Positions 1 to 32,209 of a stretch of DNA of 64,000 bases are shown here, piece by piece. This DNA comes from Candidatus Microthrix parvicella Bio17-1 (GTDB lineage: Bacteria > Actinomycetota > Acidimicrobiia > Acidimicrobiales > Microtrichaceae). The position numbers and the translations under genes were made by a program. The stretch is taken from the NCBI RefSeq assembly GCF_000299415.1, contig NZ_AMPG01000001.1, forward strand, positions 1,550,001-1,614,000, written 5' to 3'. Within the stretch, counting starts at the first letter, position 1, and each line of letters starts with the position of its first letter. The notes beneath the pieces were generated by a model. It made no database searches, had not been told where the DNA came from, and was given only the letters and a program-made list of their open reading frames with translations.

Positions 1-991
1 ATGCCAACACAACCGAGGCGAACGCCTCGTTCACCTCGAACAGGTCGATGTCGTCCACGCTCATCCCGGCACGAGCCAGCACCTTCTGGGTGGAGGGGAT
101 CGGGCCGGTCAGCATGGTCACCGGGTTCACACCGGCCAGCGAGAACGCATGGAAGCGAGCACGGGGGGTGAGGCCCAACTCGGCCGCCTTTTCCTCGGAC
201 ATGATCAGTGCAGCGGAGGCACCGTCGGTGATCTGTGAGCTGTTGGCCGCTGTCACCTTGCCGACGTCGGGCTTGAAGGCGGGCTTCAACTTGGCGAGAC
301 CCTCGGCAGTGGTCCCGGGGCGGATCCCCTCGTCCTGGGTGACCGGCGCATCCTCGATGGTGACCTCGCCGGTCTCCTTGTCGCGGCGGCGACCCTGAAC
401 CGGAATGATCTCGTTGTCGAAGCGGCCCTCGTCGCGAGCCCGTTCGGCGAACTGCTGGGACCGAGCACCGAAGGCGTCCAGGTCCTCTCGGCTGAGGCCC
501 CACTGATCGGCGATCATTTCAGCGGAGATGCCTTGGGGCACCAGGCCACCCTGGTCGATGTAGCGGTCGTTCATGCCCTCGGTGAAGGGAAACCCGACAC
601 CCTTGGAAACCGAGGCACCCATCGGCACCAGGCTCATCTCCTCAACCCCCGCAGCGACGACCACGTCGTAGGCGCCGGCCATAACCCCCTGGGCTGCGAA
701 GGTATAGGCCTGCTGGGAGGAACCGCACTGACGGTCGATGGTGGTGGCGGGCACGGAGTCCGGCCAGCCGGCCGCCAGCACAGCGTTACGGCCGATGTTG
801 AGCCCCTGCGCGCCCACCTGCATGACGCACCCCATGATCACGTCGTCCACCAGCGACGGGTCCAGGTTGTTGCGCTTCTGGAGCGCCATCAGCACCTCGG
901 CCGCCAGGTCCACTGGATGCCATCCCGAAAGGACGCCGTTGCGCCTCCCCCCTGCGGTGCGGACAACATCGACGATCACGGCGTTCGGCAT
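1..991 (-). CDS. Thiolase (acetyl-CoA C-acyltransferase), 3' part outside window
   Basis: Condenses or thiolytically cleaves acyl-CoA in beta-oxidation or related pathways in the cytoplasm. The frame opens at an ATG (991-989) and stays open to the window edge, about 330 residues. It shows the thiolase N-terminal fold and the active-site cysteine in DRQCGSSQQA (near residue 90), followed by the VVAAGVEEMS segment. The NEAFA motif of the C-terminal half is reached just before the edge. A GGGAG ribosome site lies just upstream of the ATG. It diverges from the fatty-acyl-CoA synthetase at 1187, so the two probably share a control region with the palindrome at 1027-1044. The substrate chain length cannot be told. 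The family call is secure. Confidence 0.93.
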   Translation of the reverse strand, partial: MPNAVIVDVVRTAGGRRNGVLSGWHPVDLAAEVLMALQKRNNLDPSLVDDVIMGCVMQVGAQGLNIGRNAVLAAGWPDSVPATTIDRQCGSSQQAYTFAAQGVMAGAYDVVVAAGVEEMSLVPMGASVSKGVGFPFTEGMNDRYIDQGGLVPQGISAEMIADQWGLSREDLDAFGARSQQFAERARDEGRFDNEIIPVQGRRRDKETGEVTIEDAPVTQDEGIRPGTTAEGLAKLKPAFKPDVGKVTAANSSQITDGASAALIMSEEKAAELGLTPRARFHAFSLAGVNPVTMLTGPIPSTQKVLARAGMSVDDIDLFEVNEAFASVVLA

Positions 992-1026
992 GGAGGTGCT
1001 CCCAAGTGAATCTGTGTAGTGGGCTT

Positions 1027-1044
1027 CTTGACTGGGCGGTCAAG
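1027..1044. promoter_or_regulatory. Palindromic operator between thiolase and acyl-CoA synthetase
   Basis: A perfect inverted repeat, CTTGAC-N6-GTCAAG, sits in the 195-bp divergent intergenic region, 35 bp upstream of the thiolase start. Within it TTGACTG/CGGTCAA is nearly symmetric. This shape matches TetR-family operators that control fatty-acid degradation genes in actinobacteria. Binding by such a repressor is inferred; no regulator gene is adjacent. Confidence 0.45.
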
Positions 1045-1186
1045 TCTTCCTCAACCCAACCGGAGGGTCAATCGCAGCGGCCGATTGCACATTGCGACCG
1101 CAGCCTGTGACCCACCGCACATCTGAGGACTACCCTGCTACCTACACGAGAACCCGCACCGGCCGGGTGCAAGGGGAAGGATCACC

Positions 1187-2983
1187 ATGACGCTGACCGA
1201 CGACGAGATTCTTGCAAGAGTCGAGGGCCAGACTGTTCCCACCGCCTTCATGGCCACCGTTGCCGCCTATGGCGACCATGTGGCGCTTCGGTCGATGGTT
1301 GGGGACGGCTGGAGGCAACTCACCTTCAACCAGTACGCCGAACAGGTGGCCACAGCGGCCGCCGGCCTGCGCGCTGTCGGTGTCGGCAAGGGCGACCGCG
1401 TCGTCATCATGATGCGCAACATTCCCGAGTTTCACATCGTCGACCTGGCGACCACGTTTCTGGGCGCAACTCCCATCTCGATCTACAACAGTTCGTCACC
1501 AGACCAGGTGGCATACCTGGTCGGCGACTGTGCCGCCAAGGTCGCGGTCGTGGAGGGCGAGGGCTTCGCGTCGCGTTTCCGAGCCGTGCGCGATCAGCTT
1601 CCCGCTCTCGAGAGCCTGGTGATGCTGAACGACGCCGACGCCGACGCCGACGCCGTGGCGTGGGATGCGTTCATGGCCCACGATCCCCTCGATCTGACCG
1701 TTGAGGTCAACAACGCCTCACCCGAGGATCTGGCCACCGTCATCTACACCTCCGGCACCACCGGTAACCCAAAGGGCGTCATGTTGAGTCACCTCAACAT
1801 CGTGTGGACCGGGGAGTCGCTGCGTGAGACGTTCCCATTTCCCGAGACCGCCGGGGTCAGGGTGATGTCGTATCTGCCGATGGCTCACATCGCCGAGCGC
1901 ATGACGTCGCACTATGCCAGTGCGATCATGGCCTACGACGTGTGTTGTTGCCCAGAGTTCTCCGAACTCACCGCCCACATCGGGGCGGTGCATCCCAACC
2001 TGATGTTTGGCGTGCCCCGGGTGTGGGAGAAGATCCACTCCGGCATCGCCGCAGTGCTCTCCGCCGACCCGGAAAAAGAACAGAAGGTCGCCGAGGCCGT
2101 CGAGGCGGCGCTCCCCATCATGGAGAAGATGGATGCCGGTACTGCGAGCGAAGAGGAGATCGCCACGTGGCAATTCCTCGACGACGTCGCCTTCTCGACC
2201 ATCCGCAACCTCCTGGGTCTTGAGGAACTGCAACTGGCGGTCAGCGGCGCTGCGCCGATCTCCGCCGAGCTGTTGTCTTGGTTCCGAGCCATCGGTGTCA
2301 ACCTGTGCGAGGTTTACGGGATGTCGGAGTCAACCGGCCCGATGACCTTCACCGTCGAAAACCCCAAGGCGGGAACCGTCGGCCCGGCGATTCCGGGATC
2401 CGAGGTCGCTCTGGCCGAGGACGGCGAGGTGATCTTCCGAGGTTCCAACGTGTTCGTCGGCTACCTGAACCAGCCCGAAAAGACCGCCGAGACCATCATC
2501 GACGGCTGGCTGCACTCCGGCGACATCGGCACGCTCGACGACGACGGTTACCTCACCATCGTCGACCGCAAGAAGGAGTTGATCGTCACCGCCGGCGGCA
2601 AGAACATCAGCCCGGCCAACCTGGAGGCTGAGCTGAAGATGATTGACATCGTCGGCCAGGCGGCTGCGATCGGTGACCAGCGAAAGTTCGTCTCCGCCCT
2701 GTTGGTGCTCGATCCCGAGGTTGCCCCGATCTGGGCGCAGCGCAATGGCATCGAGTTCGAGTCGCTCGACGAACTCGCCAAACACGATGCGGTTCGAGCC
2801 CATGTCGACGCAGGCGTCGCGCAGGCGATGGAAGGATTCAACCACGCCGAGGCGGTGAAGCGCTGGGTCATCCTCGGCGACGAGTGGGAGCCCGACTCCG
2901 AGGTACTGACGCCCACCTCAAAACTCAAGCGCCGCGGCATCCTGACCCGCTACGAAGTGGAAATCGAGTCGATGTACGCCTGA
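1187..2983 (+). CDS. Long-chain fatty-acid--CoA ligase (AMP-forming, FadD15-type)
   Basis: Activates fatty acids to acyl-CoA through an acyl-adenylate. It is 598 residues, the usual length for bacterial long-chain synthetases of the FadD15/ACSL type. The P-loop-like AMP motif YTSGTTGNPKG is near residue 188, the YGMSES adenine-binding segment near residue 380, and the hinge and C-terminal lid contain DRKKELIVTAGGKNISP. An AGGGGAAGGA ribosome site precedes the ATG. It is divergent from the thiolase, consistent with a fatty-acid-use role. The chain-length preference is not readable from sequence. Confidence 0.93.
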   Translation: MTLTDDEILARVEGQTVPTAFMATVAAYGDHVALRSMVGDGWRQLTFNQYAEQVATAAAGLRAVGVGKGDRVVIMMRNIPEFHIVDLATTFLGATPISIYNSSSPDQVAYLVGDCAAKVAVVEGEGFASRFRAVRDQLPALESLVMLNDADADADAVAWDAFMAHDPLDLTVEVNNASPEDLATVIYTSGTTGNPKGVMLSHLNIVWTGESLRETFPFPETAGVRVMSYLPMAHIAERMTSHYASAIMAYDVCCCPEFSELTAHIGAVHPNLMFGVPRVWEKIHSGIAAVLSADPEKEQKVAEAVEAALPIMEKMDAGTASEEEIATWQFLDDVAFSTIRNLLGLEELQLAVSGAAPISAELLSWFRAIGVNLCEVYGMSESTGPMTFTVENPKAGTVGPAIPGSEVALAEDGEVIFRGSNVFVGYLNQPEKTAETIIDGWLHSGDIGTLDDDGYLTIVDRKKELIVTAGGKNISPANLEAELKMIDIVGQAAAIGDQRKFVSALLVLDPEVAPIWAQRNGIEFESLDELAKHDAVRAHVDAGVAQAMEGFNHAEAVKRWVILGDEWEPDSEVLTPTSKLKRRGILTRYEVEIESMYA

Positions 2984-2995
2984 GCCACCCGGCAC

Positions 2996-3541
2996 TCAGT
3001 TGAGGTCGGGCCGGGGTGGCGGCTTTGGTTTTGGGGCCGCCACCTTTGCCCCGCGAGGGGAGTCGGTGCGAGGTAGCACACGAGGAGCCCTCGGAGCCTC
3101 GTCGTCGCGTAACGGCGACAACAGGAGATCGATCGCCAGCCACAGGGTCTTGGTGAAGGGCATGCCCCCCACCGAACTCACGAGTGCCCAGCCCATGGCC
3201 AGCGAGGCGAGCGGTACCAGCGGGATGTTCGGCTGGGTCAGGATCGCGCCCACCAGAATGATGCCGAACAGCGAAACGAACGTGACGATCGTGTTCATAC
3301 CGATTGCCCCGATGAAGGTGCCGGGCTCGCGCTCGAACCGCAGCTCGCACCTGGGACACCTCTTCGCAAGGTTGAACCAGCCCGAGAAGAGCCCGCCGGT
3401 GCCACAGACCGGGCACCGGCGTGTGGCACCTCGCATCAGGATGCGCGCAGGAGACACCCCGAGTTGATCCATGGTCGTCGGTGGTTCGCCACCGCTCGCC
3501 TTGGGTCGAGGCTGTCCGGTGCGGGGATCGATTCGGGTCAC
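2996..3541 (-). CDS. DUF983 membrane protein
   Basis: A 181-residue protein of unknown function. The N-terminal part has a zinc-ribbon-like pair of CPxC/CPRC motifs (CPVCGTGG and KRCPRCELRF). Two hydrophobic segments follow (about residues 80-130), then a basic, proline-rich tail. Paired cysteine motifs followed by two membrane helices define the DUF983 family. The gene converges with the ligase, with only 12 bp between stop codons. The start could lie at an internal Met (residue 24). Confidence 0.8.
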   Translation of the reverse strand: MTRIDPRTGQPRPKASGGEPPTTMDQLGVSPARILMRGATRRCPVCGTGGLFSGWFNLAKRCPRCELRFEREPGTFIGAIGMNTIVTFVSLFGIILVGAILTQPNIPLVPLASLAMGWALVSSVGGMPFTKTLWLAIDLLLSPLRDDEAPRAPRVLPRTDSPRGAKVAAPKPKPPPRPDLN

Positions 3542-3668
3542 ATGTCCTCACAAGCGCCGGGGCTGTAGCGGCGCATCCGCCGCTCCCACTCTCCCCCGGC
3601 CCCGCACCACTCTGCCAGTCGCTACGGTGCCAGGGTTGCTCGCAAAGAAGCGCAGGGGGGTTCCACAC

Positions 3669-4535
3669 ATGACCGAGAAGAACCATGAGGGCAGTTCGGC
3701 CTCAGCGGACGAGCCGGTGGTACAGCTTTTATCCGCCCAGTTTGATGCGGTGGTGGCCTTGGCCAACGAGATCCCCGACGCCGACTGGGATCGGGAGACC
3801 GATCTGCCCGGATGGACGGTGCAGGATTGTTTCAGCCACATGATCGGGGTGGAACGCCAGATGCTAGGTCTCGGAGAGGACTCCCCGCCGGTGGCCCACC
3901 TCGCTCATGTCGACGACGACTTCTCTGCCATGGTCGAGGCACCGGTCGAACTGCGGCGCAACCACACACCCACACAGATTCGGGCCGAACTGGCCGAGAC
4001 GTTGGCCAATCGCCGACAAGCATTGGAAGAGCTCGGACCCGACGGGTTCGATGCGGAGTCCTGGACGCCCGCGGGGCCCGGCACCTACCGCGACTTCATG
4101 CTGATTCGGGTGTTCGACCTGTGGATGCACGAGCAGGACGTCCGTCATGGTCTCGACCTTCCCGGCCACCTGGCGGGCCCGGTGGTCGAGTCGGTACTCC
4201 GGCACAACGTTGCAAAGGCGCTGCCGATGATCGTCGGTAAACGGGCCGCCGCCCCGGCCGGCGCCACCGTGGTCGTCAACCTGACCGGTCCCACCGAGGC
4301 GACCTTCGCTGTCGAGGTTCGCGAGGTCTCCGGAAAGAAGCGCGCCTTGTTGGCCGACTCAACCCCGCACGCCCCCACCACCTCGATCCACATCGATGTC
4401 GACACCTTCATGCGCCTCTGCGGAGGACGGGTGGACACCGAAGCAGCCATCGGGGCGAACCCAACGGCGGTCTCCTTCGATGGCGACGACGTGCTGGGCC
4501 GGGCAATCGTGAACACCCTGTCCTTTACCCCCTGA
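3669..4535 (+). CDS. Maleylpyruvate isomerase-family mycothiol-dependent protein
   Basis: A 288-residue protein with the DinB-like four-helix MDMPI N-terminal domain. WTVQDCFSHMIGVERQMLG holds the conserved metal-binding histidine region, and LWMHEQDVR holds the second HExxDxR-type motif. A C-terminal SCP2-like part ends in DTFMRLCGGR. Relatives in actinobacteria use mycothiol as cofactor; the exact reaction here is unknown. The ATG at 3669 is chosen over an upstream in-frame start because an AGGGGGG ribosome site precedes it by 8 nt. It stands alone between convergent and downstream genes. Confidence 0.82.
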   Translation: MTEKNHEGSSASADEPVVQLLSAQFDAVVALANEIPDADWDRETDLPGWTVQDCFSHMIGVERQMLGLGEDSPPVAHLAHVDDDFSAMVEAPVELRRNHTPTQIRAELAETLANRRQALEELGPDGFDAESWTPAGPGTYRDFMLIRVFDLWMHEQDVRHGLDLPGHLAGPVVESVLRHNVAKALPMIVGKRAAAPAGATVVVNLTGPTEATFAVEVREVSGKKRALLADSTPHAPTTSIHIDVDTFMRLCGGRVDTEAAIGANPTAVSFDGDDVLGRAIVNTLSFTP

Positions 4536-22292: not shown

Positions 22293-23570
22293 TCAGACGG
22301 TGGGGGGCCAAACGTTCCGGTCGTACTGATCCAGGAACACAGCCATCTGGCCGCGCGTGACCGGCGCGCTGGGCGAGAACGTCGTGGCCGACGTGCCTCC
22401 GGTGACGCCAGCCTCCACCAACCAGGCCACCGGGGTCGCATAGGACGCTTCGGGGTTCACGTCTACAAACCCGGGCGAGCCGACAGGGGCGGGCGAACCG
22501 GCGAGCGCCCACAGGAACGTTGCCATCTGACCGCGGGTCACCTTGGCGCTCGGCCCGAACTTACCGGGAGCAACGCCACCGGTGACTCCCGCCTCCACCA
22601 GCCACGACACCGGTGTGTCGTAGTAGGCGGGCGGGGCCACGTCGTTGAACGTATGGTTGGAAGTGGCTTCGGGCTTGCACTGAAGGTTCCAGAGGAACGC
22701 CGCCATCTGCCCCCGCGTCACGGTCTTGTCCGGTCCAAAGAGGCCGGGTGCCACACCGGACGTGATGTTGGACGCCACCAGCCACGACACCGAGTTGTTA
22801 TAGAACTTGTTGGACGCAACATCGCTAAAGCCGTGCGGCGGTGCGGGGCGGTCTGCCCGGCATGGGTACGGGTCGGTCACCACGTTGGTACCTGGGCCCA
22901 CGTTGGCGACGGGTGCCTCTGGCAGGCAGTCGAGCACCAGCGGTTGTGTGACCTTGTTGTTGTTGAAGAGGATGTTCACCCTGAGGTACACCGAAGCCAC
23001 CAGGCGAACCGGGCCGGGCTGGTAGTTGATGGTGCCCAAGGCCGATGGTGTGGCGCTACCGGAGATCGTGACCGGCGCGCTGACGCCGCCAACGGGCGGG
23101 CTCTTCAGGTTGAGCGGGCTCCATGCCGGCACCGGAAAGCTCTGCTGAATCGCTGCGGGCGACACACCGGCACCTGCCATGTTGACCGTTCCGTAGCCGC
23201 CGGGTTGCACGGTCAGGTTGGCTTCCTTGACGTCCGAGCCGGGAACCACCGGGATCTCAAACTGCGGGATTGCGGCATTCACGCTGAACGACGGGTCCGA
23301 CTTCAACGGCCTGCCGGGCGAGCCGTTGCTCGGCGTGGAATATGCGACGTTCACAGATATCGGATTCGCCGCCAAGGCCGCGTCGAGTTGGTCTCGCACC
23401 ACATCGCGCACCGTGTCGGTGTAGAGACCTTCCACGGTGGGTTCCCCATAGGTGGCGACGCATCGATAGTCGATGTTGGTGGTGCCGGCTGTGGCTCCGG
23501 CGGGGTTGGCGGAGCCGAGACCGACGACGGCGATGGACATCAGCATCACTGCCGAGACGAGCTTGCGCAT
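22293..23570 (-). CDS. Secreted protein with three C-terminal SLH-type repeats
   Basis: A 425-residue exported protein. A signal peptide (residues 1-27, MRKLVSAVMLMSIAVVGLGS) is followed by a roughly 200-residue beta-rich domain of unknown type. Three SLH-like repeats follow (FSDVASNKFYNNSVSWLV, FNDVAPPAYYDTPVSWLV, FVDVNPEASYATPVAWLV, each ending in xTRGQMAxFLW). SLH repeats normally bind wall polysaccharide, so it is probably cell-surface anchored. The start at 23570 gives the proper signal peptide. Confidence 0.85.
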   Translation of the reverse strand: MRKLVSAVMLMSIAVVGLGSANPAGATAGTTNIDYRCVATYGEPTVEGLYTDTVRDVVRDQLDAALAANPISVNVAYSTPSNGSPGRPLKSDPSFSVNAAIPQFEIPVVPGSDVKEANLTVQPGGYGTVNMAGAGVSPAAIQQSFPVPAWSPLNLKSPPVGGVSAPVTISGSATPSALGTINYQPGPVRLVASVYLRVNILFNNNKVTQPLVLDCLPEAPVANVGPGTNVVTDPYPCRADRPAPPHGFSDVASNKFYNNSVSWLVASNITSGVAPGLFGPDKTVTRGQMAAFLWNLQCKPEATSNHTFNDVAPPAYYDTPVSWLVEAGVTGGVAPGKFGPSAKVTRGQMATFLWALAGSPAPVGSPGFVDVNPEASYATPVAWLVEAGVTGGTSATTFSPSAPVTRGQMAVFLDQYDRNVWPPTV

Positions 23571-23784
23571 GGAACATCCTTTGGTGCGGGCGGGTTGACC
23601 TTTCATTGAAGCGCATGCCCAACGTCACATGCCACAAAAATGAGACCTCACAGATGAATCACTGTGACCACCCATCTCCTTCCCCACCTCCATCGTCGAC
23701 TCCGTTGCTTCGGGACCATCGACCCTGGCCGCCGAACGGCATTGGACCTAGGTTCGGTCCGTCGATGACCACGAGGGAGATCCA

Positions 23785-25228: not shown

Positions 25229-25690
25229 TCACGCTTCCAGTCTGGAGCGTGCCTCGAGTGTTGCGAAGCACGCTTCTGCCGCTTCCCTGCCCTTGCCCTT
25301 CAGGTGCTCGGCAAAATAGCGCTGATGGTCCTCGTGCTCATGGAAGTGATGCGGGGTCAGCACGCAGGAGAGCACCGGCACGCCCACATCGAGTTGAACA
25401 CGCATCAGTCCGCCGATCACTGCATCTGCCACAAATTCGTGCCGGTAGATACCTCCGTCCACCACCAGCCCGGCCGCGACGACGGCATCGAAGCGACCGG
25501 TCGTGGCCAACGCCTTCACGTGGAGGGGCAACTCGAAGGCCCCGGGAACCTCGAACGTCTCGACTGCTGCACGGTCTGGTGTTGCGACCTCAAGAAACCC
25601 ACGGAGAGCCTGATCGACCAGGTCGGCGTGCCACCCGGCCCGAACGAATGCCAACGTGGGAAAGGCTTCAGAGCGGTCGGTTTCGGTCAT
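25229..25690 (-). CDS. ribH: 6,7-dimethyl-8-ribityllumazine synthase, type II
   Basis: Catalyses the penultimate step of riboflavin synthesis. It is 153 residues. Conserved segments include FEVPGAFELPL, VVAAGLVVDGGIYRHEFVA and the type-II (RibH2, Brucella-like) segment CVLTPHHFHEH, which replaces the usual type-I LTxENxEQA motif. No other rib gene is nearby. It lies only 70 bp downstream of the riboswitch-led SLH gene on the same strand, so co-transcription is possible. The ATG at 25690 is chosen because the upstream extension is unlike the family. Confidence 0.9.
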   Translation of the reverse strand: MTETDRSEAFPTLAFVRAGWHADLVDQALRGFLEVATPDRAAVETFEVPGAFELPLHVKALATTGRFDAVVAAGLVVDGGIYRHEFVADAVIGGLMRVQLDVGVPVLSCVLTPHHFHEHEDHQRYFAEHLKGKGREAAEACFATLEARSRLEA

Positions 25691-25760
25691 GAGCTGGCAC
25701 CGTAGAACCTGGTGTGCAGGGGCAGCCAACCATGAACCTGAACGACCGGAAGTGCGGCCG

Positions 25761-27395
25761 TCAGGCCGAAGCCCCGCACGCGGCCTTCCAGAGGAGCTGG
25801 GCCATCTGACCTCGTGTCAACTGGCGGTTGGGGCCGTAGAGACCCGGGGCGACGCCGGCGGTGATCTCGGACTCGACGAGCCAGGAGACAGCGGTGTAGT
25901 AGTAGTCGGTCGGCGCGACGTCGGTGAAGCTGTATGTCTCGGCGGGTTCCGGGCTTCCGGCGGCCTTCCAGAGGAACTGGGCCATCTGACCGCGATTCAC
26001 GACGCTGTTCGGTCGGTAGAGGCCCGGGGCGACGCCGGCGGTGATCTCCGACTCGACGAGCCAGGAGACAGCGGTGTAGTAGAAGTCGGTCGGCGCGACG
26101 TCGGTGAAGCTGTATGTCTCGGCGGGTTCCGGGCTCCCGGCGGCCTTCCAGAGGAACTGGGCCATCTGACCGCGATTCACGACGCTGTTCGGTCGGTAGA
26201 GGCCCGGGGCGACGCCGGCGGTGATCTCCGACTCGACGAGCCAGGAGACAGCGGTGTTGAAGTAGTCGGTCGGCGCGACGTCGGTGAAGCTGTGCGGCGC
26301 GGGTGAGGAGCAAGAGACCGGGCAGTCGGTTTCGATGTGATCGGCCATGGCGGCGTCGACCACCGGGAACGCAACGTCACCCAGGCCCCAAAGGCCCTGG
26401 GTGGTCGAAAAGGTGTCGGGCAGTTCGCTGCCATCCTCCTGTGCCTGGAAGAACAGGCCGCCAACATCGGAGGGGTCCCCGGCCTCGCACGGGATCTGAA
26501 ATGTGCGGAGGGCGGCGAGGCCCTCGGTGTCGGAGGCGCCCGTGACGGTTCGGAGGGCGGCGAGCACCAACCCGGTCGAGCTGGCATCGGCGGGCTCGGT
26601 GGCATCACCGAAGTACGGCCACCCGCCGGTCGAGGTGCGAACGCCGTCGAGCCAGGTCACGGCGTCGTGGTCCGGGGTGACCCCCTGGGTGGCCAGGCCC
26701 ATCAGGGCCATGGCGCTCGAGTTGGTGTCGGGGCCGGAGAAGGCTGCGGCGTCGACGGCGGGACATGGGACGGCGGTGTCGGCCCGGTAGGCCACCCACG
26801 AACCGGTGTCGCACTGCTGGTCGGTCAGCCAGGCTTCACCGTCGGGGTCATCGTTGTTCACCGACGCCAACGCCAACAGCGCCAGGCCCTGGCGGAAGGC
26901 GCCGTCATAGGTTGGGTCGCCGCTGCCGTAGAGGCCGATGTCGGGCGACACTGTCCGCCGGGTGGCCTGGAGGCGTGCGACCAGGTCGGTCCCGCCGGCA
27001 TCGGTCGGATCCTCGCCAAGGGCGACGTTGGCCAGGGTGGCCAGGGCCAGACGGCCGGGGTCGTCCCCGCCGTATGGGGCGACGACGGTGTCGATGTCGT
27101 CGTTGACCGCGTCGAGCATCTGCCGGGCGGTCGGTCCTTCGGCGCCGGCTGCGGCAAGCCCGATAATGCCCTGAAGCGTCATGCCGTAGTCGGCCTGGCC
27201 CGGGCTGTATCCCTCGATCACCCCGTCGGCGTTGACCTGGGCGGCGAGCCAGCCGGCCGCCGACGAGCCCGGGTTGTTCGGCGGCGCCGCAGCGACCGGA
27301 TTGATCAGGCCGAGTGTCAGCAGCACTGCTGCGACGGTCGCCATGGCGGCTGGACGTCGAGCGGGGCGCACTCGCTGGTGGGTGATAGATGACAT
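25761..27395 (-). CDS. Riboswitch-led secreted alpha/alpha-toroid-like protein with SLH repeats
   Basis: A 544-residue exported protein. The signal peptide spans about residues 1-37 (MATVAAVLLTLGLINPVAA). Residues about 40-360 form recurrent helical hairpins with a common Gly/Ala pattern (YGMTLQGIIGLAAAG, FRQGLALLALAS, SSAMALMGLAT, SSTGLVLAALRT). These resemble the alpha/alpha-barrel repeats of squalene cyclases/prenyltransferases and of the cobalamin carriers intrinsic factor and transcobalamin. Three SLH-type repeats (about 370-540) anchor it to the wall. A cobalamin riboswitch lies in its leader. A surface cobalamin-binding role is inferred from these two facts together. A polysaccharide or lyase role is the alternative. 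Confidence 0.8.
   Translation of the reverse strand: MSSITHQRVRPARRPAAMATVAAVLLTLGLINPVAAAPPNNPGSSAAGWLAAQVNADGVIEGYSPGQADYGMTLQGIIGLAAAGAEGPTARQMLDAVNDDIDTVVAPYGGDDPGRLALATLANVALGEDPTDAGGTDLVARLQATRRTVSPDIGLYGSGDPTYDGAFRQGLALLALASVNNDDPDGEAWLTDQQCDTGSWVAYRADTAVPCPAVDAAAFSGPDTNSSAMALMGLATQGVTPDHDAVTWLDGVRTSTGGWPYFGDATEPADASSTGLVLAALRTVTGASDTEGLAALRTFQIPCEAGDPSDVGGLFFQAQEDGSELPDTFSTTQGLWGLGDVAFPVVDAAMADHIETDCPVSCSSPAPHSFTDVAPTDYFNTAVSWLVESEITAGVAPGLYRPNSVVNRGQMAQFLWKAAGSPEPAETYSFTDVAPTDFYYTAVSWLVESEITAGVAPGLYRPNSVVNRGQMAQFLWKAAGSPEPAETYSFTDVAPTDYYYTAVSWLVESEITAGVAPGLYGPNRQLTRGQMAQLLWKAACGASA
25780..26320 (-). repeat. Three tandem ~180-bp units encoding SLH repeats
   Basis: Three consecutive units of about 180 bp encode the SLH-type repeats of the surrounding gene. 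The two promoter-proximal units (about 25963-26322) are almost identical at the DNA level, differing at a handful of positions, which implies recent duplication or gene conversion. The third, C-terminal unit is slightly more divergent. Confidence 0.85.
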
Positions 27396-27454
27396 TGGGG
27401 CCTCTCCCGGGTACGACAGCGGGAGGGTGTCCCGCTCCGAACCGCAATTCCTCG

Positions 27455-27575
27455 ACGGTTAACAGGGGAGCGCACGGGGTCAGGCATTCCGACTCGTGGG
27501 GCGAACCCCACCTACGGCTGCGGGTCAGCGCCGGATTTTGACCGGCTTCCCCTGTCCTCGTGTGATCTCAGCCAG
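27455..27575 (-). promoter_or_regulatory. Cobalamin riboswitch
   Basis: The minus strand of the leader of the SLH/toroid gene shows the conserved cobalamin-aptamer core. This comprises GGGGAAGCCGGTC...AATCCGGC, then GCTGACCCGCAGCCGTAGG, a GC-rich hairpin GTGGGG-TTCG-CCCCAC, and the 3' segment GAGTCGGAATGCCTG. Complementary 8-mers at 27462-27469 and 27548-27555 could form a long-range helix. It ends about 60 bp before the start codon, so control of translation or early termination in response to B12 is expected. Confidence 0.85.
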
Positions 27576-27869
27576 ACAAGCACAGCTGGCGGTTTAACGC
27601 AAGCTGCGGCGAACGGCTGAGCCCGAAGTCACCGCCGCTGCTCAGGTTGTGACTTGGTTCGATCTCGCCGAGGCGCCACGACGGTCGAACCACCACTCGA
27701 GTGGCGCTCGGAGCACCGGATCACACCCATCCTCATCTGTCGCCCCACTCTGAGCCACACCCGCCCAACAACCCACCGGCTCTCACCGATTTCACACCAG
27801 GGATCCGTTCGACACCCTGCGAACGGCATTGGCTGGTGTATCCGCATACTGAGAGGTCATATTCAAACT
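27576..27869. other. Intergenic stretch with no recognised gene
   Basis: Upstream of the riboswitch. It probably contains the promoter for the riboswitch transcript, but no clear -10/-35 pair stands out. No coding pattern is seen. Confidence 0.4.
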
Positions 27870-29431: not shown

Positions 29432-32209
29432 TCACAACCGGACCACCGGTGTGGGCGTCACCCTGTCGATCATGGAACCATCCCCGAGCTGACCGGAGGA
29501 GTTGGATCCCCAGCAGTACGCCGTACTGTTTTTCTGGAGCGCACACGAATAGGTGCCGCCCGCGGCCACGTCGGTCACCCCGTCGAGCCAGGGCACCGCG
29601 GTGGGTGTTGTTCGGTCGGTGGTGGTGCCGTCCCCGAGCTGCCCGATGTAGTTGTATCCCCAGCAGCCCACGGTGGCGTCCTGTTTGATCGCACACTCGT
29701 GATTACCCCCAGAGGTGATTGAGGCGACTCCGGCGATACCGGTCACGGGGGCTGGCGTCGGTCGGTTGGTGGTGGTTCCATCACCGAGCTGACCGTAGGC
29801 GTTGTTTCCCCAGCAGTCCACGTTGCCGTTCTGTTTGAGCGCACACGAATAGGAGGAGCCAGAGGTGATCGAGGCGACTCCGGCGATACCTGTCACGAGG
29901 GTTGGCGTCAGCAGCTCGGTGGTGGTCCCATCACCGAGCTGCCCATAGTCGTTGTATCCCCAGCAGGCCGCGACGCCGTTCGGCTTGGACGCACACGAAT
30001 GTCTCACGCCGGCATCGATCCCACTCACACCGGAGATGCCGGTCACGGGGGTTGGCGTCTTCTTTAGGGTGGTGGTGCCGTCCCCGAGCTGACCGTGGGC
30101 GTTGCTTCCCCAGCAGTCCACGTTGCCGTTCTGTTTGAGCGCACACGCATGATCGCTGCCTGCGGTGATGGCGGTGACCCCGGTGAGCCCGGTCACCGGT
30201 GTGGGGGTCAAGCGGTTGGTGGTGGTGCCATCACCGAGCTGACCGAGGGAGTTGTCCCCCCAGCAGGCCACGGTGCCGTTTCGTTTGAGCGCACACGAAT
30301 ACTCGCGGCCTGCGATGATGGCGGTGACCCCCGTGAGCCCAGTCACCAGGGTGGGTATCAACCGGTCTGCCGTGGTGCCATCACCAAGCCGACCACTGCC
30401 GTTCTCCCCCCAGCAGACCACGGTTCGGTTCTGTTTGACCGCGCACGTATGCTCCGAACCGGCGCTGATCGCAATCACTCCGGTGAGCCCGGACACCTGG
30501 GTAGCCGTTAACCGGCTGGTGGTGGTGCTGTCACCGAGTTGACCGTCGCCGTTGGCCCCCCAGCACCATGTGGTGCCGTTGTGTCTGAGCGCGCACGAAT
30601 GAGAACCGCCGACGTCGACCGCAGCAACATCGGGCAGCCCGATAACCGGGTAGGGCGTCAAGCGGTTGGTGGTGGTGCCGTCACCGAGCCGACCGTCGCC
30701 GTTGGCCCCCCAACGACGCAAAGTGCCATCCTGTTTCAACGCACACGAATGAGCTTCGCCGGCCGTGACTGCCTTGACTGCGGTGAGGCCGAGCACCGGG
30801 GTGGGCGTCGACCGGTTGGTGGCGGTGCCGTCACCGAGCTGACTGTTGCCGTTGTAGCCCCAACAGGCCACCGTGGCGTCCTGTTTCACCGCACACGAAT
30901 GACTTTTCCCGGCGGCGATAGTGGTCACGCCGGTGAGACCGGACACCGGCGTGGGTGTCTTTCGGTCGGTGGTGGTTCCGTCGCCGAGCCGACCGTTGCT
31001 GTTGGAACCCCAACACACCACGGTGGCATTCTGTTTCAGCGCGCACGTATGGTCGGATCCGGCGCTGATCGCCTTCACTCCGGTCAGCCCGGACACCGCA
31101 ATGGGCACCGACCGATTGGTGGTGGTCCCATCCCCGAGTTGCCCGCTGCCGTTGAGCCCCCAGCAGGCCACCGTGGCGTTCTGTTTGACCGCACAGGTGT
31201 GAGCGGACCCCTCCGCAATGGCGGTCACCCCTGACAGCCCGGACACCGCAGTGGGCACCGACCGATTGGTGGTGGTCCCATCCCCGAGCCGACCGTCACC
31301 GTTGTAGCCCCAACAGAACACGGTGCCGTCCTGTTTTAGCGCACACGAATTAACCGACCCGGCAGCAATTGCGGTCACGCCGGTGAGGCCACTCACGGGT
31401 ATGGGCGTCGACCTGTTTACGGTCGTGCCTTCCCCGAGTTGACCAAATCCATTTCGGCCCCAGCAGAACACGGTGCCGTTCTGTTTCAGCGCACACGAAT
31501 GGTCCGCGCCGGCAGTGATGGCCACGGGTGTGTTCAAACACGACGACCGCCATAAGAACACCGCCATCTGTGCCCGGGTCACCAACTGCGACGGCGAGAA
31601 CTTCCCCGGCGAGGTCCCCGAGGTGATCCCTTCACCGACCAGCCAGATCACCGCATCGGCGAAATACGAATTCGAAGGAACATCGGAGAATCCGTTCGGA
31701 CCCTTCGGCTCCGGCGAGCCGGCAACCCGCCACAAGAACACCGCCATCTGTGCCCGGGTCACCGACTGCGACGGCGAAAATTTCCCCGGCGAGGTCCCCG
31801 AGGTGATCCCTTCACCGACCAGCCACGTCACCGCATCGGCATAATACGAATTCTAAGGAACATCGGAGAATCCGTTCGAACCCAACTGAGCCGGAGCACC
31901 CTCATTGCCCCACAAAAACGCCGCCATCTGAGCCCGGGTCACCGACTGCGACGGCGAGAACTTCCCCGGCGAGGTCCCCGTCGTAATTCCAGCGCTCACC
32001 AGCCAACTGACCGCCACATCAAAATAGGAACCGGTGGGCACATCAGAGAACCCGTGCGGCTCTGGAGCAACACACGAACCACCACCCCCGACATCATCGA
32101 CCCCCCGCACCGCTCCCGGTTCCGCACCCACCGGAGCCCCCAACGCCCCCGTCACGCCCACCACCAGCAACCAAACAACCCACACACGGCGGACGAATTG
32201 ACGAACCAT
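29432..32209 (-). pseudogene. RCC1-repeat/SLH surface protein interrupted by one amber codon
   Basis: One continuous frame encodes a signal peptide (VWVVWLLVVGVTGALGAPVGA) and three SLH-type repeats (FSDVPTGSYFDVAVSWLV and two similar). Fourteen RCC1-like repeats of about 50 residues follow, each with [25 protein letters not shown]. The frame is broken by TAG at 31855-31853, inside the second SLH repeat. The third repeat has TCG at the same codon, so a single substitution explains the stop. RCC1 repeats form a seven-bladed propeller, and fourteen would make two. It may be a recent nonsense mutation, a readthrough site or an error. Without the stop it is about 925 residues. Confidence 0.85.
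29480..31530 (-). repeat. Fourteen tandem ~150-bp RCC1 coding repeats
   Basis: About fourteen units of roughly 150 bp. Each includes the antisense of TGTTGGGG-type codons for CWG, followed by CAGCTCGGTGA(C/T)GG. Spacing is regular and the frame is preserved throughout, so these are protein repeats. Several neighbouring units are closely similar, suggesting expansion by recombination. Confidence 0.85.

Follow-up and report, generated by a model that had tools for sequence, protein, structure and literature searches.

Cobalamin (B12) carriers of animals, namely transcobalamin, intrinsic factor and haptocorrin, combine an alpha/alpha toroid (PF01122) and a beta-grasp domain in a single chain. 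Bacterial relatives of this arrangement, the transcobalamin-like SLBB clade, were predicted by Burroughs et al. in 2007 to scavenge B12 at the cell surface, on the basis of signal peptides, surface anchors, toroid plus beta-grasp domains and operons with CbiO/CbiQ, usually in organisms lacking key B12 synthesis enzymes, and it was proposed that animals acquired these proteins from Gram-positives (PMC1796856). That clade was described mainly as toroid-SLBB fusions or SLBB proteins in low-GC Gram-positives, planctomycetes and, less often, euryarchaea. ECF-type import of B12 has been described for a transporter with the S component CbrT, where the membrane S component itself is the binding protein (PMC5997447), and in acI actinobacteria without the B12 pathway an ECF module preceded by cobalamin riboswitches has been proposed as a B12 transporter (PMC5301498). 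In our assessment, how Gram-positive bacteria collect B12 outside the membrane is poorly known, while extracytoplasmic catchers such as BtuF are known from Gram-negatives (PMC5997447).

Here we examined a 64,000-nt stretch of the Candidatus Microthrix parvicella Bio17-1 genome (GCF_000299415.1, contig NZ_AMPG01000001.1, positions 1,550,001 to 1,614,000; hereafter the window), in which a first-pass annotation had noted a cobalamin aptamer in front of a secreted protein with a toroid-like hairpin region and three SLH repeats, and had interpreted the protein as a surface-held B12 scavenger. We confirmed the observation, and we found the interpretation to be supported with three corrections: the fold does not by itself point to B12, the protein is probably only one half (alpha) of a two-gene system, and SLH anchoring, although unusual for the family, is ordinary in this genome.

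The riboswitch and its gene

To determine whether the leader is a genuine riboswitch, we searched the window against Rfam, and found that the aptamer passes the cobalamin model RF00174, with its 5′ end lying outside the interval proposed in the first-pass annotation, 25761-27575 (Table 1). The signal peptide, of Sec type, was read by eye from the sequence. We also folded the region between aptamer and gene using ViennaRNA, and observed that in the lowest-energy fold of 27380-27470 part of the Shine-Dalgarno-like sequence is paired with the 3′ edge of the aptamer, whereas in the fold of the whole leader this pairing is not formed, so that control of translation is plausible but not shown. A second lumazine synthase gene (ribH, PRK12419 type) starts about 70 bases behind the riboswitch-led gene on the same strand. 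No lumazine synthase match was present in any of 95 related loci (L038-L132, described below), so we did not consider ribH part of the system, and a link to the B12 lower ligand, made from flavin, is only an idea.

Table 1. Coordinates of features in the window and in contigs (C) of the same genome.
Feature	Position (strand)	Evidence and remarks
Cobalamin riboswitch aptamer	window 27462-27599 (-)	RF00174, 39.8 bits, gathering score 31.5; E 1.4e-6 (64 kb, both strands, 4227 families); E 2.2e-8 in the whole-genome search
Presumed expression platform	window 27401-27461 (-)	Mechanism inferred
Shine-Dalgarno-like GGGAGAGG	window 27401-27408 (-)	GGGAG (27404-27408) pairs with CTCCC (27466-27470) in the fold of 27380-27470 only
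544-aa secreted protein	window 25761-27395 (-)	ATG at 27395; signal peptide, predicted toroid, three SLH repeats
Predicted alpha/alpha toroid domain	window 26367-27287 (-)	Residues about 37-343; NF053823, E 2.9e-46, 158.2 bits, below the cut-off of 300; fold match over model residues 2-308
Three SLH repeats	window 25779-26291 (-)	Residues about 369-539; PF00395, three stretches, E 4.5e-34, total 116.6 bits, cut-off 20.8
Second lumazine synthase gene	window 25229-25729 (-)	ATG at 25690
Better-scoring lumazine synthase gene	C4:226875	
Protein with three SLH repeats	window 22293-23606 (-)	No other Pfam domain
SLH plus RCC1-repeat reading frame	window 29432-32209 (-)	14 RCC1 stretches; in-frame TAG at 31853-31855
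Further SLH matches with one in-frame TAG each	C1:333319 and C2:56624	
Second cobalamin riboswitch	C2:293266-293396	Above the cut-off
Beta gene	about C2:293550-294962	First gene after the second riboswitch
Sub-threshold riboswitch match	C1:273242-273329 (-); L007:9243-9330	27.4 bits; followed by a 289-aa ORF without Pfam match

The predicted toroid fold is not diagnostic

We next asked whether the hairpin region alone would identify a cobalamin carrier. AlphaFold2, using 28 aligned sequences, predicted an alpha/alpha toroid with a mean pLDDT of 92.2. When this model was compared with solved structures using VIA-align, squalene-hopene cyclase ranked first (Z 25.3, 265 residues, 3.1 A), while intrinsic factor (3kq4) had Z 20.3 (240 residues, 3.0 A, 19% identity), level with several glycosidases and epimerases (Z 20-21). 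Foldseek listed transcobalamin at E 1e-5, at rank 14 and behind cyclases. The fold therefore fits a cobalamin carrier but does not single it out, and the first-pass annotation's own condition for abandoning its reading (no cobalamin cleft, and a match to a polysaccharide lyase or cyclase) is half fulfilled. Several invariant D, N, R, Q and S residues sit at or near the starts of helices; that these line the ligand mouth is inferred.

Sequence comparison did not point to animal carriers. The window domain had no match to PF01122, and 3 of the 28 aligned members gave only weak hits (best E 0.0013, 18.2 bits against 25). A search of the alpha profiles against solved structures returned cyclases, prenyltransferases and complement proteins, but no transcobalamin. 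In the alignment of swapped-order alphas (see below), 50 of 53 rows were used, three partial ones (L114, L123, L129) being left out. The beta profile gave only weak, chance-like hits (best E 0.023) and no Pfam match (0 of 15). We therefore claim no homology by sequence, and rely on the fold comparison only.

Riboswitch, beta and ECF genes accompany the toroid in relatives

To examine the context of the toroid independently of the riboswitch, we scanned a collection of 84,980 species genomes with a 15-sequence alignment (15 of 16 candidates with the window, L052 being left out), which gave 178 pattern matches, of which 128 were confirmed and the best 80 kept (loci L053-L132). These loci come from Streptomyces, Nanopelagicales and Microthrixaceae among others, so common soil and freshwater actinobacteria would be involved. 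Using a covariance model built from the riboswitches of 11 of these loci, we found a B12 riboswitch upstream of alpha on the same strand in 79 of 80 loci, a pairing beyond chance; in the one miss, L055, the open frame starts at contig base 1. The median distance to the start of the toroid core was 221 nt (range 140-4490); in L098 the beta and ECF genes lie between, and in L064 the beta gene. With Rfam itself, 11 of the 15 earlier relatives passed a gathering score, ten for RF00174 and one (L039) for AdoCbl-II, while two more (L046, L051) scored just below it, L044 starts at a contig end, and none was found for L045. Two B12 riboswitches occur in one locus in L054 and L057 (one before beta and one before alpha) and in L093 (one on each strand).

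A small beta-type ORF was present in the same locus (flanks up to 8 kb) in 65 of 80 loci, and in 46 of 80 there were also at least two ECF subunit types, although many contigs are short. Eleven of the 27 window-type loci have alpha without beta nearby, as in the window. An alpha-beta fusion in one frame was looked for in the 95 loci L038-L132 and not found. Across 61 genomes (the genome under study plus 60 relatives), alpha (E 1e-10) was present in 36 and beta (E 1e-4) in 38, with both in 34, alpha only in two, beta only in four and neither in 21 (Fisher p 2.1e-10, not corrected for relatedness). Of the 36 genomes with alpha, 13 match above 270 bits, while the other 23 match with 48-118 bits and may hold more distant toroids. 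In the two alpha-only genomes (G010, G021) the alpha gene lies at a contig end.

The SLH anchor proved to be unique, with 0 of 85 distinct relatives carrying it; as a positive control, the SLH profile found SLH in the window, in the same genome and in other genomes, but nothing in the 95 loci even at E 10. By a rough script, the other alphas have short tails (40), C-terminal membrane segments (16), lipobox-like starts (7, one doubtful), an FTG end (7) or other tails (15). The seven distinct alphas ending exactly in FTG-stop (L059, L068, L069, L073, L088, L093, L107), most after a Thr/Ser-rich stretch, resemble a sortase motif with nothing behind it; of 3515 ORFs over 150 aa in the loci, ten end so (duplicate contigs included), and all ten are alphas.

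Interestingly, the two halves of the window domain match NF053823 in swapped order. Split profiles applied to the 80 loci showed alpha in window order in 27 ORFs and swapped in 51 (2 undecided), and beta in window order in 16 and swapped in 45 (5 undecided, of 66). In the 59 loci where both could be read the two orders always agreed (15 window-window and 44 swapped-swapped), although shared ancestry may explain the agreement. The window type is found mostly in Acidimicrobiia records, and the swapped type in Streptomyces, Nanopelagicales and others. The window-type beta aligns with animal transcobalamin in one direction over 12-127, so it has the animal order.

The predicted beta fold and the genome under study

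In contrast to the toroid, the predicted beta fold gave a clear separation. Two bad rows (L064, L093) were dropped from the alignment of beta domains. The model of one relative (L057; 15 sequences; pLDDT 86.6) matched haptocorrin (Z 12.9, 100 residues, 1.9 A), transcobalamin and intrinsic factor in all of the first 14 ranks (Z 12.9-11.7), followed by 3u7z (Z 10.6) and then an unrelated beta-grasp protein (Z 8.0). Foldseek agreed, with transcobalamin first at E 1.1e-4. The fold was thus predicted for a relative, and the beta protein of the genome under study, which scores below the cut-off of NF040672 (SCO2322), is linked to it by a match to the same profile (E 2.1e-43).

In this genome the alpha and beta genes lie on different contigs (C1 and C2), and two riboswitches pass the cut-off. 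The beta protein has a long Thr/Pro-rich stretch and a C-terminal hydrophobic segment followed by RRRR. Behind its gene lie EcfT (CbiQ, PF02361, E 8.8e-8), two EcfA (ABC) domains (E 2.5e-52) and an S component, which matches PF12822 ECF_trnsprt (E 2e-4, 21.8 bits against a cut-off of 30.7) and no other Pfam family at E 0.001. CbiC (PF02570) was not found, whereas CobS and five PF02310 B12-binding matches were present. The organism thus probably cannot make the corrin ring and needs imported corrinoid, although one missing biosynthesis gene in a genome that is 95% complete is weak proof of auxotrophy. Sixteen other places in the genome match the SLH part of the protein.

Discussion

We consider it likely that the gene encodes the alpha half of a split, transcobalamin-like B12 capture system. 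In this view, the riboswitch lets the protein be made when cellular B12 is low, the protein is secreted and held on the cell wall by its SLH repeats, and its toroid opening binds a corrinoid together with the separate beta-grasp protein, after which the ECF transporter imports the vitamin. Corrinoid binding, sandwiching between alpha and beta, hand-over to the S component and repression by B12 are inferred, and that the wall-held and membrane-held halves meet is assumed. The case rests on the riboswitch in nearly all loci found by the toroid alone, on the transcobalamin-beta-like neighbour and on the ECF transporter. A bolder form of this reading, about as likely as not, is that a transcobalamin is assembled in trans on a Gram-positive surface, with a wall-mounted alpha and a stalked, membrane-held beta, each under its own B12 riboswitch, closing around one corrinoid, that anchors (SLH, lipobox, C-terminal membrane segment, or none) are exchanged freely, and that both halves were circularly permuted together in a sister lineage, which would make this a natural test of how alpha and beta must meet.

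Among the alternatives, it is possible, though we think it unlikely, that the system captures an incomplete corrinoid (cobinamide) or mixed environmental cobamides, with CobS rebuilding the lower loop inside the cell. The presence of CobS without a detected CbiC is the pattern of a salvager, but nothing here separates the two readings, as the beta model matches intrinsic factor and haptocorrin, which probably differ in selectivity, about equally. A terpene cyclase-like surface enzyme that happens to be under B12 control is very doubtful: the best sequence and fold matches are squalene-hopene cyclases and DGGW-like repeats are kept, but at the position aligned with the presumably catalytic DxDD the family has D-x-N in 28 of 28 aligned members (two have a DxDD elsewhere), the protein is secreted, and in relatives the gene sits with the beta-type partner and an ECF transporter. 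Similarly improbable is uptake of cobalt rather than B12, suggested by the match of EcfT to CbiQ, given the sub-threshold Pfam match of the S component, a transcobalamin-like partner that suits a corrinoid, and the undetected corrin-ring gene. A polysaccharide hydrolase, lyase or epimerase is least likely, since the GH76, GH105 and epimerase toroids that reach Z 20-21 share only 5-13% identity among the matches listed, no Pfam glycosidase match was found in the window protein or above cut-off in relatives (weak pectic acid lyase hits, best E 0.056, in 4 of 50), and the B12 riboswitch is kept.

The kind of system is known as a prediction, and what appears new, in that we did not find it in searches of openly licensed literature, is the two-gene split, its riboswitch linkage across Actinobacteria, the interchangeable anchors including the SLH version, and the paired permutation. 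Compared with the clade of Burroughs et al. (PMC1796856), this is an actinobacterial family with the toroid as its own protein, SLH anchoring, and measured riboswitch linkage. The acI modules (PMC5301498) likewise place an ECF module under cobalamin riboswitches, without, as far as we saw, mention of alpha and beta surface proteins. The NCBIfam families NF053823 (SCO2321) and NF040672 (SCO2322) are homologous to alpha and beta, and their Streptomyces loci show riboswitch, alpha, beta and ECF genes in one order, but both proteins are circularly permuted relative to the window type and the model names give no function; our analysis turns these families and their Acidimicrobiia relatives into testable candidates for a split B12 carrier related in fold to human intrinsic factor. 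With animal transcobalamin, intrinsic factor and haptocorrin the system shares a predicted alpha/alpha toroid and a beta-grasp partner whose predicted fold is closest to these proteins, while it differs in being bacterial, encoded by two genes, wall- or membrane-bound and associated with a B12 riboswitch, and it also gives material for the origin of animal B12 carriers.
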